From positions 1-64,000 of the forward strand of contig NZ_WMID02000017.1 in NCBI RefSeq assembly GCF_009711165.2: a DNA stretch of 64,000 bases, written 5' to 3'. Every line of letters begins with the position of its first letter. The stretch's first letter is position 1. Position numbers and translations under genes: made by a program. The notes below the pieces were generated by a model that was given only the letters and a program-made list of their open reading frames with translations, had not been told where the DNA came from and made no database searches. This stretch comes from Flavobacterium sp. MC2016-06. Lineage in GTDB: Bacteria > Bacteroidota > Bacteroidia > Flavobacteriales > Flavobacteriaceae. Positions 27,375 through 38,929 of the stretch are shown in pieces.

Positions 27375-27420
27375 TTTTTTGCACATATAATTCTAACCGA
27401 AAAGAAGGAATGTAAAAAAA

Positions 27421-27595
27421 GTTTCACGCAGATTTCGCAGATTTTAGCAGAATTAGGAATGAAAAAATTTCACGCAGATTTTAGCGGAATAGGAATAAAA
27501 AAAGGCTCACGCAGATTTCGCAGATTTTAGCAGAATTAAGAATAAAAAAATCTGCCTAATCTGTCTAAATCTGCTGAATCTGCGTGAAAAAAAAT
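27421..27595. repeat. Degenerate repeat cluster between hxlR and the antiporter gene
   Basis: Three direct partial copies of a TTCACGCAGATTTCGCAG/TTTTAGCAG unit (from about 27423, 27469 and 27508) are followed by an inverted arm CTGCTGAATCTGCGTGAA near 27571-27588, giving a long fold-back structure. Confidence 0.75.
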
Positions 27596-27650: not shown

Positions 27651-29225
27651 TTAAATGTATCGCAGTCTTTCTTCTTCCAAATCAATATATTGCAATTGTT
27701 TGCGAATAATTTCTTCGTTTAAGGTTTCTTCTTCTTTATTTCTGTTAATAAGCCAAAGTCTTTGTTCGCTTAATATTTCAAGATAAACGACTTTACATTC
27801 TTCTGCCATTTTTGTATCGTTTACCATTAGCTTGTTGTCTTCCCATTTACGAGCCAATTGCTGTAAAGCAGGTTGCTGCTGTAATAATTGGCTATAGTTA
27901 GTATGCAGATGTTCTAATGCTTTTTCTGCCAATTCCCTGCGAATTAACAACTCTGTTTCTTCTTCTGGAACCAATTGATCTGGATCGGGCACGTGTATTT
28001 TTTCAATTAAATACGGTAATGTTATTCCCTGCAGTAATAAAGTCAGTAGAATTACGACAAATGTTATAAAGAGAATTAAATTTCGCTGCGGAAAAGGATC
28101 TCCATTCTCCAAATGAAGCGGAATCGACAAAGCTGCCGCCAACGAAACTACGCCGCGCATACCCGACCAGCCTATTAATAAAGGGACTCTATAACCGGGA
28201 TGTCTCGAATCTGCTACTTTTATAAAATTACGAGCGATAAGCGTTACAACTACTGCTCCGTAAGCCGATATAATTCGGGCAACCATCAATACAACCGTGA
28301 TTAAAACTCCATAACCAATTGCCGATGAAATACTAATACCTTCAAGTCCTTCTGTAATTTCAGGTAAATCTAAACCAATTAATAAAAATATGATCCCGTT
28401 TAAAACAAAACACAAACTTTCCCAAACGTTTAAACTTCTAATTCGCGAACGACTACTAAGGAATTGATGTCTATTATACGATAAAAACAAACCACCGCTC
28501 ACTACCGATAATACTCCCGAACTGTGCACTTCTTCTGCTACAATGTACATGATATAAGGCGCTACAAGCGTTAAAACAATATCGATATTAGAATCTGTTG
28601 GCAGATATTTATGAGCTTTCATAAAGATTAACCCAATCAATAAACCAATTCCGACACCGCCAATTAACATCCAACTGAAACTCAGCGCGGCTTTGTACCA
28701 GATAAATTGTCCAGTGGCAACTGCTATCATCGCAAAACGGAAAATGATTAAGGATGAAGCATCATTGAGCAGACTTTCGCCTTCTAAAATTGAAGAAAGC
28801 CTTTTGGGAACTTTTACAAATTTTAAAATCGCACCAGCACTCACAGCATCTGGAGGCGATACAATTCCGCCCAGCAAAAAACCTAAAGCCAATGAAAACC
28901 CCGGAATAAAATGATTTGCTGCAAAAGCAACAGACAACGCGGTAAGAAACACTACAACAAAAGCAAAACTGCCAATAATACGTCGCCAACGCCAAAGTTC
29001 TTTCCATGAAATAGACCAAGAAGCTTCGTATAATAATGGTGGAAGGAATATAATAAACAGCAATTCGGGTTCGATGTGAAGAATCGGGATTCCGGGAATA
29101 AAACTAATTCCTAATCCTGCTAATACCAATAATACTGGATATGCAACTTTAATTTTATTGGCCAGCATTATTAAAAATAAGATGACTACAATAAGACCTA
29201 AATAAAACGGAAAATTTTCAATCAT
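27651..29225 (-). CDS. Na+/H+ antiporter, CPA1 family
   Basis: 524 residues; about twelve membrane helices in the first 400 residues, then a charged cytoplasmic tail. Conserved CPA1 motifs: FLPPLLYEASW, IVSPPDAVSAGAIL and LEGESLLNDASSLIIFRFA, where the ND pair forms the ion site. Bacterial members of this branch exchange Na+ (or K+) for H+ at the inner membrane and serve pH and salt tolerance. The first 14 bases of this gene are duplicated about 300 bp upstream by a tandem duplication. Confidence 0.88.
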   Translation of the reverse strand: MIENFPFYLGLIVVILFLIMLANKIKVAYPVLLVLAGLGISFIPGIPILHIEPELLFIIFLPPLLYEASWSISWKELWRWRRIIGSFAFVVVFLTALSVAFAANHFIPGFSLALGFLLGGIVSPPDAVSAGAILKFVKVPKRLSSILEGESLLNDASSLIIFRFAMIAVATGQFIWYKAALSFSWMLIGGVGIGLLIGLIFMKAHKYLPTDSNIDIVLTLVAPYIMYIVAEEVHSSGVLSVVSGGLFLSYNRHQFLSSRSRIRSLNVWESLCFVLNGIIFLLIGLDLPEITEGLEGISISSAIGYGVLITVVLMVARIISAYGAVVVTLIARNFIKVADSRHPGYRVPLLIGWSGMRGVVSLAAALSIPLHLENGDPFPQRNLILFITFVVILLTLLLQGITLPYLIEKIHVPDPDQLVPEEETELLIRRELAEKALEHLHTNYSQLLQQQPALQQLARKWEDNKLMVNDTKMAEECKVVYLEILSEQRLWLINRNKEEETLNEEIIRKQLQYIDLEEERLRYI

Positions 29226-29787
29226 TTGGTTGGTTGGTTAATGGATAAGTAAAGATATAAAATTGAAAGACTTAGAACACTGATAAAACTGATTTGCTAT
29301 CGCAAAGACGCTGATAAAAACTGATTTTTTTATTTATAATAAAAGTAAAAATCCGCGCTAATCTGTGTCTTGGCGATAGCGAATCCGTAAAATCCGCGTC
29401 AAAAATTGTAGCCAATAAATTAAAACTTACTCACAGCATCTACAAAATACGGGGAATCATTCCATCTTATTTTTCTGTAACTGAAATTGGTTTTTTCTAA
29501 TAAACGGGAAATTTTCAATCATTTGGTTGGTTAATGGATAGGTAAAGATATAAAATTGAAAAAATTAGAACACTGATAAAACTGATTAGCTATCGCAAAG
29601 ACGCTGATAAAAACTGATTTTTTTATTTATAATAAAAGTAAAAATCCGCGCTAATCTGTGTCTTCGCGATAGCAAATCTGTAAAATCCGCGTCAAAAATT
29701 ATAGCCAATACATTAAAACTTACTCACAGCATCTACAAAATACGGCGAATCATTCCATCTTATTTTTCTGTAACTGAAATTGGTTTT
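29212..29787. repeat. Tandem duplication (about 293 bp) spanning both flanking gene ends
   Basis: 29212-29494 and 29509-29787 are near-identical with an offset of 293 bp (297 bp at the left edge because copy 1 has an extra TTGG). Each copy holds 14 bp of the antiporter 5' end, the whole intergenic region with its own inverted repeat (GATTTGCTATCGCAAAGACG type), and the last 75 bp of oxyR. Confidence 0.93.
29420..29494 (-). pseudogene. Duplicated 3' fragment of oxyR
   Basis: Encodes the C-terminal 24 residues of the OxyR protein plus stop (RKIRWNDSPYFVDAVSKF type, with one change in the copy) but has no gene body. It is the by-product of the tandem duplication at 29212-29787. Confidence 0.88.
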
Positions 29788-33001: not shown

Positions 33002-33802
33002 ATGAAAACAAACAACGAATTGGGTACTGCAGTAGTAACTGGAGCATCATCTGGATTAGGAAAAGCATTTGCTGAAAAACTGGCAAAAAAAGGTTACGAT
33101 TTAAAATTGGTAGCGCGCCGCGAAGAAAGATTAATTGAGCTTGCCGAAAACCTTCGCGCTAAATACGGTGTAACGGTTACCAATTATGTAGCAGACTTAA
33201 GTCTTGCTGCAGATTTAGAAAAAGTAGCCACCGCAATTCAAAACGATGCATCAATTACTTTATTAATTAATAACGCTGGAACTTCTACCCTTGCTGCATC
33301 AACACAGACTTCTGTTGCTAAACAAAAAGAAATGGTCGATGTAAATATTACAGCTTTAATGTTATTGACTAATGCTGTTTTACCAGGATTTATAGCTCGT
33401 AACCAAGGAACTTTAATCAATATTGGTTCTGTTTTGGGCGCTTTTACTTTGCCTATAAGCAGTATTTACAGCGGAACAAAAGGATTTGTAGTACAATATA
33501 CTAGAGGTTTGCAGGAAGAAGTAAAAGGAACAAACATTAAAATTCAATTGGTAAATCCATCAATTACAGCAACTGAAATCTGGGAAGTTGGAGGTGTTCC
33601 GTTATCTGCACTTGATCAAGCAGCGATTATGTCAACCGAAGATTGTGTTGATGCCGCTCTTGCAGGTTTAGAATCTGGCGAATTGGCTACTTTCCCGTCT
33701 GTAAACAACCAAGAATTGATTGACGCTTACGAAGATGCTCGTATCAAACTATTTACAGGTTCACAAACCGGGAAACCTGCTGAACGTTATTTGCAGAATT
33801 AA
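33002..33802 (+). CDS. SDR-family oxidoreductase
   Basis: 266 residues. TGASSGLG cofactor motif near residue 13, basic RREERL after strand two suggesting NADPH, NNAG-type LINNAGTST, catalytic Ser in NIGSVLGAF and YSGTK with Tyr and Lys. Similar to the DltE/YqjQ-like branch. Its promoter carries both TetR operators, so it is the main regulated target of the divergent TetR. Confidence 0.87.
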   Translation: MKTNNELGTAVVTGASSGLGKAFAEKLAKKGYDLKLVARREERLIELAENLRAKYGVTVTNYVADLSLAADLEKVATAIQNDASITLLINNAGTSTLAASTQTSVAKQKEMVDVNITALMLLTNAVLPGFIARNQGTLINIGSVLGAFTLPISSIYSGTKGFVVQYTRGLQEEVKGTNIKIQLVNPSITATEIWEVGGVPLSALDQAAIMSTEDCVDAALAGLESGELATFPSVNNQELIDAYEDARIKLFTGSQTGKPAERYLQN

Positions 33803-33845
33803 TTTAACACGTTAGTCCCAATATCTCCACTTTTTATTCGTCTTT

Positions 33846-33947
33846 TTGTCATTTCGAGAAACGAGAAATCACACTCGTAACGCTACAAAGATTTGCGATT
33901 TTCTATAAGGAGTTTCTTGTGCTATTTCTCGTTCCTCGAAATGACAA
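33846..33947. repeat. Intergenic inverted repeat (TTTCGAG/CTCGAAATGAC family)
   Basis: TTGTCATTTCGAGAAACGAG near 33846 pairs with CTCGTTCCTCGAAATGACAA ending about 33946. The CTCGAAATGACAA tip recurs in the 37-kb tandem array and near 50710 and 55240. Confidence 0.78.
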
Positions 33948-33994
33948 GATTACGGAATACCGGATTCATTATAATTCTTTCTCTCTTTTTATTC

Positions 33995-34023
33995 AAAACC
34001 AGAAGTTTGTCGCTTCTGGTTTT
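33995..34023 (+). terminator. Intrinsic terminator
   Basis: Perfect 11-bp stem AAAACCAGAAG (33995-34005) with complement at 34013-34023 and a T-run. Confidence 0.9.
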
Positions 34024-34038
34024 TTGTTTTTAATTATT

Positions 34039-34068
34039 TTTGAAATACCAAAATAATGTTTAATTTTG
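34039..34068 (+). promoter_or_regulatory. Consensus Bacteroidota promoter
   Basis: TTTG (34039-34042), 18 nt, TAATTTTG (34061-34068). The start point would fall at about 34074, on the ATG of the 49-residue gene, so the message would be leaderless or use an internal ATG at 34124. Confidence 0.72.
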
Positions 34069-34072
34069 TAGG

Positions 34073-34222
34073 ATGAATAAGATAGTTGTAAATAAAAAAG
34101 CTGTTATTGAATCTGTTGCCAAAATGGCTGCAGATAAAGCTATCGTTCGTTCTTACTTGAAAGGCAAAGTTTCCTTAGAAATATTAAAAGAAAAAGGAAT
34201 CACTCTTGCCAAACCCCTATAA
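34073..34222 (+). CDS. 49-residue small protein, overlapped by the next gene
   Basis: MNKIVVNKKAVIESVAKMAA then a basic segment ending LKEKGITLAKPL. Basic and probably helical, no signal peptide. It ends 17 bp inside the next gene (34206), so the two are translationally coupled. Size, order and overlap resemble two-gene antitoxin/toxin-type or regulator/effector pairs, but I know of no function. An internal ATG at 34124 would give 32 residues. Confidence 0.7.
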   Translation: MNKIVVNKKAVIESVAKMAADKAIVRSYLKGKVSLEILKEKGITLAKPL

Positions 34223-34700
34223 TTACTTCTTCGACGAAACTACACAATCTTACCATTTTAAAACAAAAAATGATATAGATTATCGTGTGGCATTTATTAT
34301 TGATCATACTTTTAGTGCCGTTTCTGGTATTGAAATGAATAATATTTACCAAATTATTATTGAAAAAGTTGACGATAGATTAGAAAAATTTGACAGTCAA
34401 GTTTCTGCAACAGTTCAATTAATTGTTTTATCTTTTTTTGGAAACGCACAAAACGCAATGATTTACATTTGTGATGATACAGATCATAAAGGAAAAAAGA
34501 GATTTGATGCATTTGAAAGATGGTACAGAACTAGTACTTTTAACAATGACATTAAAAAAGTTAATAATGTGATTGTTTGTAATACTGATAATCAGGATTG
34601 GACTTTATATACTTCATTATTATATCATCAAAAAAACATTAATAAGAAGACAATAATAGAAGTATATCATACTTTACAAGAAATATTGAACGAAAAATAG
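34206..34700 (+). CDS. DUF6169-like protein of unknown function
   Basis: 164 residues from a TTG at 34206 (MPNPYNYFFDETTQSYHFKT). Middle: VAFIIDHTFSAVSGIEMNNI and IYICDDTDHKGKKRFDAFER, then LYTSLLYHQKNINKKTI. From memory this resembles Bacteroidota proteins called DUF6169; not verified. Soluble, no catalytic motif recognised. Its start overlaps the preceding 49-residue gene by 17 bp. High AT and Ile/Asn/Lys content suggest accessory DNA. Confidence 0.7.
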   Translation: MPNPYNYFFDETTQSYHFKTKNDIDYRVAFIIDHTFSAVSGIEMNNIYQIIIEKVDDRLEKFDSQVSATVQLIVLSFFGNAQNAMIYICDDTDHKGKKRFDAFERWYRTSTFNNDIKKVNNVIVCNTDNQDWTLYTSLLYHQKNINKKTIIEVYHTLQEILNEK

Positions 34701-34808
34701 AATCTCTGAGCTTTTCAACACATAAAATTGAACTTTTCAACAAAGCAGGAATTGAGTTTTATACTGAATTTTGCAAGTATAAAACGATAAGCAATTAAAT
34801 TAAAAAAC

Positions 34809-35456
34809 ATGAAAGTAATTATTACAGGTGCTACAGGAATGGTTGGTGAAGGTGTTTTATTAGAATGTCTTAACAATTATGCCGTAGAAAAAGTATTGAT
34901 GATTAATCGCAAACCTTCGGCGATTAAGCATCCAAAATTGGAAGAATTAATTGTTTTAGATTTTATGCAATTAAGTCGATATGCCGAAATCCTGCAAGAT
35001 TACGATGCTTGTTTTTATTGCGCCGGTGTAAGTTCTGTTGGAATGGACGAGGTAAAATATACCTATGTAACTTACGATACCACTTTGGCTTTTGCGAGAG
35101 CATTGTCTGAAATTAACCCCAATATGGTTTTTAATTTCGTTACCGGAAGCCACACAGACACTTCTGAAAACGGAAAAGTAATGTGGGCACGTGTAAAAGG
35201 TAAAACCGAAAACGATTTGATGAAACTGCCGTTTAGAGGGCAATATAATTTCCGCCCAGGATTCATGAAGCCTTTTAAACAATAGCAAAATGTAAAAACC
35301 ATTTTCAAACTTATCATTCCGCTTTTCCCGCTTTTGTTTCCTAAAAAATCTTTGACTCTAAAAGATGTCGGGCAAGCGATGATTAATACTGTGAAGGAAG
35401 GGTATCCTAAGCAGGTTTTGGAGATTGAGGATATTAAGATTTTGGCAGAATTATAG
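34809..35456 (+). pseudogene. NAD-dependent epimerase/dehydratase-like gene interrupted by one in-frame amber stop
   Basis: The frame begins ATG 34809 with the Rossmann motif ITGATGMVGEGV, and reads YNFRPGFMKPFKQ before a TAG at 35283-35285. The same frame continues without shift (QNVKTIFKLIIPL, KKSLTLKDVGQAMINTV, PKQVLEIEDIKILAEL) to a second stop at 35454-35456, giving a full protein of 215 residues. A single nonsense change therefore truncates it to 158 residues. Either a recent pseudogene or a sequencing artefact. Confidence 0.88.
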
Positions 35457-36940
35457 TTAGATTTAGTGTTTTTTCTTATTTAAAAACCTAATCGAAATCA
35501 ATAAAAAAGAACCAAAACGAGACAAAAAGAGTACTTCTTTTAACAAAAATCAATGTTCTATTTAGGGCATGAAAAATCAACATTATCTAGTTTTTAAGTG
35601 AATAAAACTCAAAGTAAAAATGATGTTACCGTGACAGACAAATACTTAAACCATCGCTAAAACAAAATAACTCTAAAATATTATTAATCAGTAATTAACA
35701 ATATTAAAAAGTTATTTATTAGATCAAAAATCATACTAAAAAATTCAAATCTATTTCAAAAAACAGGCATAAATTTAAAGATTTAATCAGCTCGAATTAA
35801 GAACATAAATTCAAACTATTTACTCTTTTTAAGCTTAATTTTTACTTATGTTTTTTAATTATTGAAACGAAAATAAAAGCAGTAAATATAGATATAAGGC
35901 ATTGAACTTGGAAAAAGCTGGACAAAAACAATGACAAAAGGGATATTAATGCTTTAAACATTAATTTATTGAGAGTCTATAAATCGAATTTGGGTTCCGG
36001 AAAAATCTATTTTATAAAATAAAAGTAAAACTTTAAATGATGAATCATAAATAGCTGTATTTATTATAATTAAAATAATAAATAATATCATTTTAAAATT
36101 CATCTTAAGAACTAAAAATTATTTATTTTAATGCCAAGCCAAGTTAAAATCTCAAACTAGCAAAACAGCAACTGCTGAAAACAAAAAAACATATACTCTT
36201 CACAGTTTTCAAATAAATAAGCTTTAAACCGCTAAAAACATCGTTTTGATACTCGTGCTTATATTTTTAATTTTATTGTCGCAATTCGCTTCTTTTGCAT
36301 CTCTAAACAGATTACCCAACATCTTTCTTGCCGTAGAATGCAGACATAAAACATCTCAATCCTAAATCGCAAATCAAAATTCACGATATTTAAACTGTTT
36401 TAGTAAATATTTCTGAAGTTCTCGTTGTATGTCGTTTTTAATTCTGACGGAATTTCTTTTCTCTAAAAAATTTTAATAAAATAAAATTGCCAGAACGTCT
36501 TGAAAAAATTTTAAAAGGATTTATTTCTTAAAAAAAGTTCGCTTGAAAAATCAAACAAGTCAAAATTAATTTGAGAAATGAAAATTGTTCCAAACAAAAA
36601 TTCAATCTGATTTTTTTGAAAATCTGATTTTAAAATAGATTTTTTTTAGATTTTTTTTCGGCCTTAAACGTGTTTTTAAATTGTCTTCAGATTATTTCAC
36701 GAAAGTGCTTCATTCATTGAAAAATATTAATCAATTACTTTATATGAATTAATTCAAAAAATTAATTTTCAACTACTTAAATAACCACTATAGATAAAAT
36801 CAATAGTAACAATACTCAAATATCGAACAAAAAACGAGTCCAAATCCAATTTTCATTCGCAATATTATCGTCTTTAAGAACCGAAAATTATGCAATTATA
36901 AAGCGAGCAGATTTGGTTAATTTTTTATTTCCATTTTTTT
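35457..36940. other. About 1.5 kb of gene-free AT-rich DNA
   Basis: No frame of useful length, RNA gene or clear repeat was recognised. Many short A/T runs and stop codons in every frame suggest long decay of a former gene region. Confidence 0.6.
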
Positions 36941-36944
36941 ATTG

Positions 36945-37950
36945 CTAACGAGAAATCTTCGTTTGCTGAATCTGATTTTGGAATTTCTTGCGATGATTCC
37001 TCCTCTTCGAAATGACAAACTTTAAATATAAATTTTGTGTGTGTTTAACTTTGTCAAAGTTTTAAACTTTGACAAAAATTTTCGTAACCCTATAAACTTC
37101 TTACTTCTCTCCTTCTGTAAACACTAGATCATAAATTGGGATGGAATTTAATTTCTGAGTTTCTTGTGCGATTTCTCGACTCCGCTCGAAATGACAAATT
37201 TTAAACATAAACTGTGCGTGTTTATCTTTGTCAAAGTTTTAAACTTTGGCAAAGATTATTGTACTACTAAAATTTCTTACTTCTCTACTTTTAAAAATAT
37301 TCGGATCACAAATTGAGCGGAATTTGATTTCTGAGTTTCTTGTGTGATTTCTCGACTTCGCTCGAAATGACAAATTTTAGACATAAACTCTGTGTGTTTA
37401 ACTTTGTCAAAGATTTAGACTTTGACAAAAATTTTCGTAATCCTAAAACTTCTTACTTTCTGTAAACACTAGATCATAAATTGGGATGGAATTTAATTTC
37501 TGAGTTTCTTGTGCGATTTCTCGACTCCGCTCGAAATGACAAATTTTAAACATAAACTGTGCGTGTTTAACTTTGTCAAAGATTTAAACTTTGACAAAAA
37601 TTTTCGTAATCCTAAAACTTCTTACTTTCTGTAAACACTAGATCATAAATTGGGATGGAATTTAATTTCTGAGTTTCTTGTGCGATTTCTCGACTTCGCT
37701 CGAAATGACAAATTTTAGATATAAACTCTGTGTGTTTAACTTTGTCAAAGTTTTAAACTTTGACAAAGATTTTCGTAATCCTAAAACTTCTTACTTTCTG
37801 TAAACACTAGATCATAAATTGGGATGGAATTTGATTTCTGAGTTTCTTGTGCGATTTCTCGACTTCGCTCGAAATGACAAATTTTAGATATAAACTCTGT
37901 GTGTTTAACTTTGTCAAAGTTTTGAACTTTGACAAAGTTTATCGTAATGC
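36945..37950. repeat. Six-unit tandem array, 169-179 bp period
   Basis: The marker CGAAATGACAA begins at 37008, 37187, 37363, 37532, 37701 and 37870 (spacings 179, 176, 169, 169, 169). From the second unit onward each carries GAGTTTCTTGTGYGATTTCTCGACTYCGCTCG-type sequence, then CTTTGTCAAAG..AAACTTTG.CAAAG fold-back arms. The last three units are nearly identical, so recent copying by slippage or unequal exchange is likely. Short frames inside are by-products. Confidence 0.92.
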
Positions 37951-38668
37951 TATAACTTCAAAACCGAAATATCTAAATCGTGATACAAGAGAATGCTCCA
38001 ATCTTCTTCTTTGGCTTGTTTCTCCCAGATTTGTCGCAATTCTTTTGCTTTTTTTCCGTCGAAATCACTTTTGTAGGCAATGTGAAATTTAATATACGAA
38101 TGCTGCGGGAGATTATCGGCGCCATAAAAATGGTTTCGCCATTTTCCTTGATCCAAAATACTTGGTGAAATGGCGTGTGTCCGCCAGTAACTTCATAAGA
38201 AATTGAGGGCGCAATAAAACCTTTGTCCTCCTCCATCCAATGAATGTTGGGTAAATTTTCTAGGCGTTTTAAAGTTTCTAAATCAAAAGAAGGATTTCCA
38301 ATCTGCGTTAAAGCATAATCGAATTCTCTTTTCTGAATATAAATTTCGGCATTAGGAAAAGTTAGTTCAGATGAATTAGTATTTAGAAACAAACCATCAA
38401 CATGATCTTTATGTACATGCGACAATAAAACTTTTGTAATCTCGGTTCTGTCTATATTTTCTTGATCCAATAATTGCTCCACTACTAATTTACGGTCGTT
38501 TTTCCAGCCATTTCCACCATCTAATACAATATAATCCTCATCGGTTATAACCAAAAAAGATTGTATTGACATTCTTATGCCTTCTAAATCTACTGCTTCG
38601 CTCAGCAATGTAAACTCTTTATTTTTATTGACTAAAAAATCCCCTTCTTTTAATGTAATAATCCTCAT
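37950..38668 (-). pseudogene. Metallo-beta-lactamase-fold hydrolase gene with a -1 frameshift
   Basis: From ATG 38668 the protein carries the MBL motif LLSHVHKDHVDG (HxHxDH) and later TGGHTPFHQVFWI. At the A5 run 38126-38130 (T5 on the coding strand, after GETIF) the frame breaks: it continues as an unrelated basic tail to 37973, while the sensible C-terminus (YGADNLPQHSYIKFHIAY, then KKAKELRQIWEKQAKEEDWS) is in the next frame to 37950. One extra T would restore a protein of about 239 residues. Likely pseudogene or homopolymer error. Confidence 0.85.
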
Positions 38669-38766
38669 AGTGTTGTTTTCCTTAAAACCTAAACTAATAA
38701 TAGGTTGTAAATACTTTTATTCGATTTTAAAGGTACTGAACTAAAAGAAAATCCCAACTATTATAT

Positions 38767-38929
38767 GCTACGATCTGGACACAAGTATAAAACAATACAA
38801 ATTTCACGAATTACCTCTAATTGGTTTGTGAAATTAATTTCACAAACGTAGGTTATCCGATTAAAATTTGTGCAAATTCGTGAAATCTGTGTTCAAATTA
38901 AATTATAATATTTGTGTCCAGACAGCAGC
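38767..38929. repeat. MITE-like element, copy 2
   Basis: About 163 bp, terminal inverted repeats TCTGGACACAAGTAT / complement of TCTGGACACAAATAT, and the same perfect 24-bp internal palindrome at 38824-38847. Closely similar along its length to 20239-20399. Lies between the frameshifted MBL gene and the reductase gene. Confidence 0.82.

Follow-up and report, generated by a model that had tools for sequence, protein, structure and literature searches.

The DNA between positions 35457 and 37950 of the window, that is, of the whole stretch of 64,000 nucleotides from Flavobacterium sp. MC2016-06 analysed here, is an apparent gene desert that turns out to have a readable history. In the account that we favour, to which we give as a whole a probability of about 80%, it is a decayed locus in which a composite of two repeat elements, here called A and B, was multiplied to six copies, with the elements spread in trans and without a selected function for the array. 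A block of epimerase, AraC-type, outer membrane efflux (OEP), HlyD and MFS genes, intact in Flavobacterium sp. 270, would have been lost or degraded here, as is seen for the OEP gene. The composite of A and B, both of which are dispersed and non-coding, would have come to lie in this decaying DNA between two converging genes, where replication slippage or unequal recombination would have raised it to six partly homogenised copies, as a mosaic unit and two other arrays suggest. The locus is mostly a case of ordinary genome decay, and the landing of B is unusually precise.

A sequence-only reading of this DNA had described a gene-free run of about 1.5 kb before the array, and this is borne out by the lack of any ORF of at least 80 aa in 35318-37846 and by a G+C content of 24% in 35457-36960, compared with 31% in 36961-37950 and 33% in the window. 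The first 0.6 kb of the desert are a decayed outer membrane efflux (OEP/TolC-type) gene, whose intact counterpart is located downstream of the same epimerase gene in Flavobacterium sp. 270. The remnant (35479-36056, + strand) consists of three collinear blocks, 35479-35556, 35742-35820 and 35870-36056, which match sp. 270 at 80%, 72% and 69% identity, all within one intact 443-aa gene that encodes an outer membrane efflux protein (Pfam, E 3e-39). Used as a tblastn query, the OEP protein scores 49.3 bits over 35580-36011, crossing many stops, and 22.7 bits in a second block at 35479; the best score in 50 mononucleotide shuffles was 25.4 bits. When 40 genomes were searched with a desert query of 1504 bp, a single further genome matched; among 299 genomes of the genus, with two candidates scored in each, three further ones did. 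Used as tblastn queries, the OEP, HlyD and MFS proteins from two relatives gave no significant match in the AT-rich stretch that follows (36057-36944; best E 0.41), and HlyD or MFS remnants there were rejected.

The gene order in sp. 270 is SDR, a 360-aa epimerase-family gene, epimerase, two AraC-type regulators, OEP, HlyD and MFS, where six genes were named by Pfam, and SDR and epimerase by their DNA match to the window. The window retains SDR and epimerase, the latter with 85% DNA identity to sp. 270 over 651 bp. According to the ORF list, gene order and Pfam, a DUF6169 ORF of 164 aa (34206-34700, + strand) occupies the place of the 360-aa gene. The two AraC-type genes are absent, since there is no room for them between the epimerase and the OEP remnant, and HlyD and MFS genes were not found adjoining the remnant in the window. 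In F. reichenbachii the whole block is absent and SDR adjoins the hydrolase gene, so that the aligned ends are 91 bp apart, compared with 3928 bp in the window. Intact, decayed and absent are thus how the block stands in three species, and do not form a demonstrated series.

The genes flanking the desert had been reported as broken on both sides, which proves correct. The NAD-dependent epimerase-family gene (34809-35456, + strand; ORFs, DNA match and Pfam) has an in-frame TAG at 35283-35285, and is either a pseudogene or affected by a sequencing error. On the other side, the gene of a metallo-beta-lactamase-fold hydrolase (37950-38668, - strand; comparison with relatives and Pfam) changes frame near 38.1 kb, and the frame of its relatives arrives at the stop codon 37950-37952. 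Together with the decayed efflux gene, the absence of the block in F. reichenbachii and the mosaic array, these two broken genes support the idea of a decay or rearrangement hotspot.

The six-unit array is real and far above chance. It was detected by TRF as a tandem repeat at 37007-37959 (period 169, 5.5 copies, 88% matches, score 1429), a repeat search gave spacings of 176, 169, 169 and 169 for five copies, and six REP arms start at 36995, 37170, 37346, 37515, 37684 and 37853, with spacings of 175, 176, 169, 169 and 169. The units are arranged head-to-tail and stop at the 3' end of the frameshifted hydrolase gene. Six units of 169-179 bp had been claimed from the letters alone; six are present, a number that is not certain since the assembly is a draft of 121 contigs, and they are 169-176 bp apart, the value of 179 not being seen. 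Near-identity of the last three units had been claimed too, and is found among the three complete 169-bp units (95.3-96.4%), with the last unit of the array incomplete; the unit preceding these three shows 77-81% identity to them. Note that five of the six units were compared, the degenerate first one being left out.

Aligned to a dispersed A+B copy on contig C4 of the same genome (locus L046), the array unit resolves into a piece of element A, namely its loop and right arm, followed by element B; the two fold-back motifs per unit noticed earlier are indeed there. The left arm of A is missing from all but the first unit. All parts are on the + strand. The A parts are located at 36945-37018 (unit 1, degenerate, left-arm traces by eye), 37135-37197 (unit 2, loop and right arm), 37312-37373 (unit 3), 37481-37542 (unit 4), 37650-37711 (unit 5) and 37819-37880 (unit 6), as delimited by the REP pattern and, for units 1-4, by alignment. 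The B parts are located at 37019-37134 (unit 1, by alignment), 37198-37311 (unit 2, by comparison of B copies; full length, ending in GGATCACAA), 37374-37480 (unit 3, with a 7-nt deletion), 37543-37649 (unit 4, the mosaic unit, by alignment and unit comparison), 37712-37818 (unit 5) and 37881-37959 (unit 6, by B comparison; shortened, its match overlapping the hydrolase gene by 10 bp at the 3' end of that gene), with units 3 and 5 delimited by B and unit comparison.

The array unit has matches in 27 of the 299 genus genomes, the source genome included (two candidates scored per genome). Among the matches listed outside the source genome, none covers more than 116 of 170 bases, and no full-length unit was seen in the other genomes. 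It had been proposed to search the genome for single units: elements A and B are dispersed through it, and a second full unit was not found (40 of 186 candidates scored). The array had no match to phages, and the region contains no tRNA.

Element A is an inverted pair of REP hairpins of about 102 bp with the tags TGTC/GACA, present at no fewer than 37 distinct, nearly full-length sites in the source genome (at least 37, with 40 of 105 candidates scored). A full copy of 102 bp (33846-33947, + strand; 81% to the L046 copy over the full length) is located between the SDR stop codon and its intrinsic-terminator-like hairpin (33995-34023, + strand). Both F. reichenbachii and sp. 270 have a matching hairpin at this position, and neither has an A insert at the SDR site. 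The fold of 33840-33960 has a z of -6.4. The REP motif had been reported as occurring singly near 33.9, 50.7 and 55.2 kb; it occurs at all three places (33.85, 50.70 and 55.23 kb), and is not single at two of them, since the first belongs to the full inverted pair and the second holds the other motif as well (50761). No match between A and plasmids was found. In several A copies the inverted symmetry continues into the flanks (TTTTCCACAATC / GATTGTGGAAAA), and the mobile A unit may therefore exceed 102 bp.

A perfect 5-bp stem was identified in 105 of 200 distinct ATGACAW contexts; when the stems were re-paired at random 200 times, the mean number was 36.6 and the highest 49. Six of the eight stem types in these contexts were seen more than once. 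A consists of two inverted REPs that form one hairpin with compensatory changes, which is the mark of a REPIN, and each REP can, on its predicted fold, also form a hairpin by itself. Among 102 perfect-stem REPs found by the tag pattern, which itself selects perfect stems, 73 have loops of 9 nt and 29 have loops of other lengths. The 9-nt loops are mostly of the form GA-x-NNN-y-GA, where x and y pair in 70 of 73 (G-C, C-G or A-T). If this inner pair is counted as stem, 71 of the 73 copies have a GNA triloop, although these loop counts are not independent events because the copies are related. Mini-hairpins with a GNA loop and at least two G-C pairs are described as extraordinarily stable in DNA (PMC4686876). 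Since a single such pair closes the loop here, we infer, rather than observe, that single-stranded DNA is the relevant form of the REP. Strict REP matches with TGTC before the stem number 45 + 42 in the source genome; of the 121 genus genomes searched, 64 contain the strict REP arm.

Element B comprises about 113 bp around CTTTGTCAAAG...CTTTGACAAAG and is likewise dispersed through the genome. Outside the array at least 23 copies with matches longer than 70 nt are present in the source genome (40 of 122 candidates scored), and 15 of these 23 share 96% identity or more with the L046 copy. So many near-identical copies are therefore probably the product of a recent burst. The B copies of the array, with 81-92% identity to this young form, are by this measure an older branch. 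The exact B palindrome occurs 67 times in the source genome and in 33 of 121 genus genomes searched, the source included. According to our own tally with rounded sizes, it is concentrated in large genomes (22 of 26 of at least 5.0 Mb vs. 11 of 95 smaller ones). Two repeat families are now recognised in Flavobacterium species with large genomes, and in one of these families many copies are nearly identical.

The B copies stand directly after ATGACAA, the heptamer with which element A ends, and their own end is usually ATGACAA too. To the left of the 23 dispersed copies the heptamer is exact in 14 cases, one base off in 7, has one base inserted in 1 and is absent in 1, so that ATGACAA or a one-step variant precedes 22 of 23, as for insertion 3' of a fixed short target; at the right end it is exact in 16, one base off in 3 and lost in 4. 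Because the word is nearly always ATGACAA, the flank is better explained as a target plus an element end than as a target duplication of variable sequence. We looked for empty sites of 16 B copies (15 dispersed and one array unit). With B taken out, the flanks of the copy on contig C57 align to a site on C7 along 182 nt (91% identity), straight through the junction; for the copy at C2:135470 the corresponding match is to a site on C36, with 218 columns and 81% identity. These two paralogous empty sites show, as far as sequence comparison goes, a precise insertion of B, which would take place directly 3' of ATGACAA. For the other 14 of the 16 copies no convincing empty site was found, six giving weaker or shorter matches that mostly reflect the A family and eight giving none; the match for L020 was its own locus only.

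Then, could the array be a functional structure, either one that stops transcription from both sides or supplies an mRNA 3' end where the genes converge, or a structured RNA, the last of which the sequence-only reading had also considered? We regard this as unlikely. Compared with shuffles, the B palindrome has a far stronger fold (z -4.4 to -4.9), four of the six array palindromes have terminator-like calls on the + strand, and 33500-38800 contains 5 terminator-like sites vs. 2.1 expected; however, there are no such calls on the - strand, and no Rfam family matches at the gathering threshold, so that a structured RNA of known family was rejected. A gene 3' end faces 49 of 53 palindrome sites, but its distance from the palindrome has a median of 152 nt and is 60 nt or less in only 8 of 49. 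Of 28 A copies, 9 lie in convergent, 12 in co-directional and 2 in divergent gaps, and 5 could not be classified. In an ORF-based tally covering the fetched loci, convergent and divergent gaps number 10:2 with a palindrome and 13:14 without, a bias in orientation that is not significant (p 0.08), and co-directional gaps number 23 with and 31 without; from these counts, the repeats may avoid promoter-side gaps. Moreover, the full-length unit was seen in no other of the 299 genomes, with two candidates scored in each. The array itself most likely has no selected function. Modest effects on transcription are possible, as the hairpins may slow transcription between the converging genes.

As for the origin of the array, the 5' part of unit 4 is like unit 2, and its 3' part is identical to unit 3 (nine informative columns, five units compared). 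Such a mosaic is, on the alignment, the mark of exchange between units. A second palindrome array is located on contig C15 at ~36.7-37.5 kb (L279 1466-2301; ~219 bp x 3.8), and within its units the 3' end of the adjacent gene, which we take to be uvrA, is present three times (77-79% identity). A third is located on contig C10 at ~28.7-29.4 kb (L042 746-1397; 275 bp x 2.4, 96%), with A-like hairpins, another repeat and B in succession. The mosaic unit and these two further arrays make slippage or unequal recombination, acting on decaying DNA, the mechanism that we prefer; since no sister strain with fewer units was seen, we infer the amplification step itself. In addition, the window has a 293-bp tandem duplication with 94% matches at 29205-29787, between two genes that are presumably an antiporter-like gene and a LysR-type regulator gene, and a 231-bp tandem repeat with 98% matches at 1-507, at the window edge and possibly coding.

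Alternatively, a mobile B-A' composite of 169 bp could have inserted again and again, each time into the ATGACAA at the end of the copy before it. Read in the B-A' phase, each unit does begin after ATGACAA and has ATGACAA at its end, like the single B insertions; but where a tandem array is divided into units is a matter of choice, one of the units is a mosaic, and no second full unit was found in the genome among the 40 of 186 candidates scored, which makes this growth improbable. An assembly artefact behind the unit number or the frame breaks, in a draft of 121 contigs where each flanking-gene break is a single event, is hardly credible, given that the units are distinguished by substitutions and a deletion of 7 nt, differences that would not arise in a false expansion, and that the OEP gene is decayed along its whole length.

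In the preferred account, slippage or unequal recombination explains the array, while A and B themselves would have spread by transposition in trans. What moved them? None of the six Y1_Tnp matches in the source genome, of which two are fragments of one gene and one is below the Pfam cut-off, has a REP or palindrome pattern within ~1.5 kb, and a RAYT of the source genome was therefore rejected as the mover of A and B. A linked RAYT flanked by the same REP, which is the usual association of a REPIN and not strictly part of the definition, was thus not found for A. In three other genomes, whose strict REP matches number 10, 41 and 23, no Y1_Tnp match was found. An autonomous partner of B is not supported either: no B ends without the palindrome were found, every match listed (40 of 122 candidates scored) containing it, and B had no match on plasmids. 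On contig C30, two interrupted Y1_Tnp genes (L184 and L185) are each located near other, unrelated hairpin repeats, as judged by eye.

Tandem clusters of REPs are described for other bacteria. Pseudomonas fluorescens SBW25 has 16 tandem REPIN clusters with flanking DNA, the largest with four REPINs and one REP over more than 700 bp (PMC3116915), and REP clusters reiterated in tandem with flanking DNA are described for other REPs (PMC3733652). The present array is like the SBW25 clusters in that inverted REP pairs are reiterated in tandem together with flanking DNA (PMC3116915). Unlike in the SBW25 clusters as described, the unit here joins a one-armed A remnant to a second element, and while three of those clusters adjoin transposase (RAYT) genes (PMC3116915), none was found at the array. 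Element A also resembles the CGTC-tagged REPs, which according to PMC3733652 have an unpaired tag beside the stem (CGTC, with TGTC as a frequent variant, or CCTC), stems starting with A and T, a predominance of head-to-head dimers and no transposase association. In A, similarly, TGTC precedes a stem with an AT start, at least 37 nearly full-length inverted pairs occur, and there is no transposase link. However, the stem of A has 5 Watson-Crick pairs, two G.A mismatches (G.A, A.G) and one more pair, compared with 8-9 bp in CGTC REPs, its loop is a 3-nt GNA compared with 4-5 nt, and its tail, by eye, is not CCA (PMC3733652). Because the loop and arguably the stem do not fit, A is called CGTC-like and not a member.

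MITEs are short, multi-copy and non-coding, with near-identical recent copies and precise insertion. B is like them in all these respects, and unlike them has no clear terminal inverted repeats. Elements of the IS200/IS605 type insert 3' of a fixed short target and are mobilised by a Y1 HUH transposase that recognises their hairpins. As a hairpin element 3' of a short fixed sequence, B also resembles the non-autonomous elements of this type, as they are described (PMC6006769, PMC3116915), although no partner transposase was found and the likeness does not extend to established subterminal hairpins at both ends.

No description of the A and B families was found in literature searches, a search with the motif letters gave no paper on bacterial repeats as judged by titles, and in the RepRanger paper Flavobacterium was seen only in a table of counts. 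We tentatively raise the possibility, which is still the less probable one, that B is a new kind of non-autonomous element, which lands at the end of the REP tag (ATGACAA), carries the same heptamer at its own right end and is mobilised in trans via single-stranded DNA hairpins (GNA-capped in A), stacked arrays being a by-product. If this were true, each B insertion would regenerate its landing site. The precise landing of B behind REP tags offers a concrete handle on the spread of REPs without a linked transposase. Another dispersed repeat, GTTACCGAAATAAGTAACCTTTACAGAAATGACAA-like, is present at L022, L027 and L042; it ends in ATGACAA and is also found directly before B. Finally, a short array of a ACGCAGATTTCGCAGATTTTAGCAG-like repeat is located at 27413-27551 of the window, and similar words occur near some B copies.
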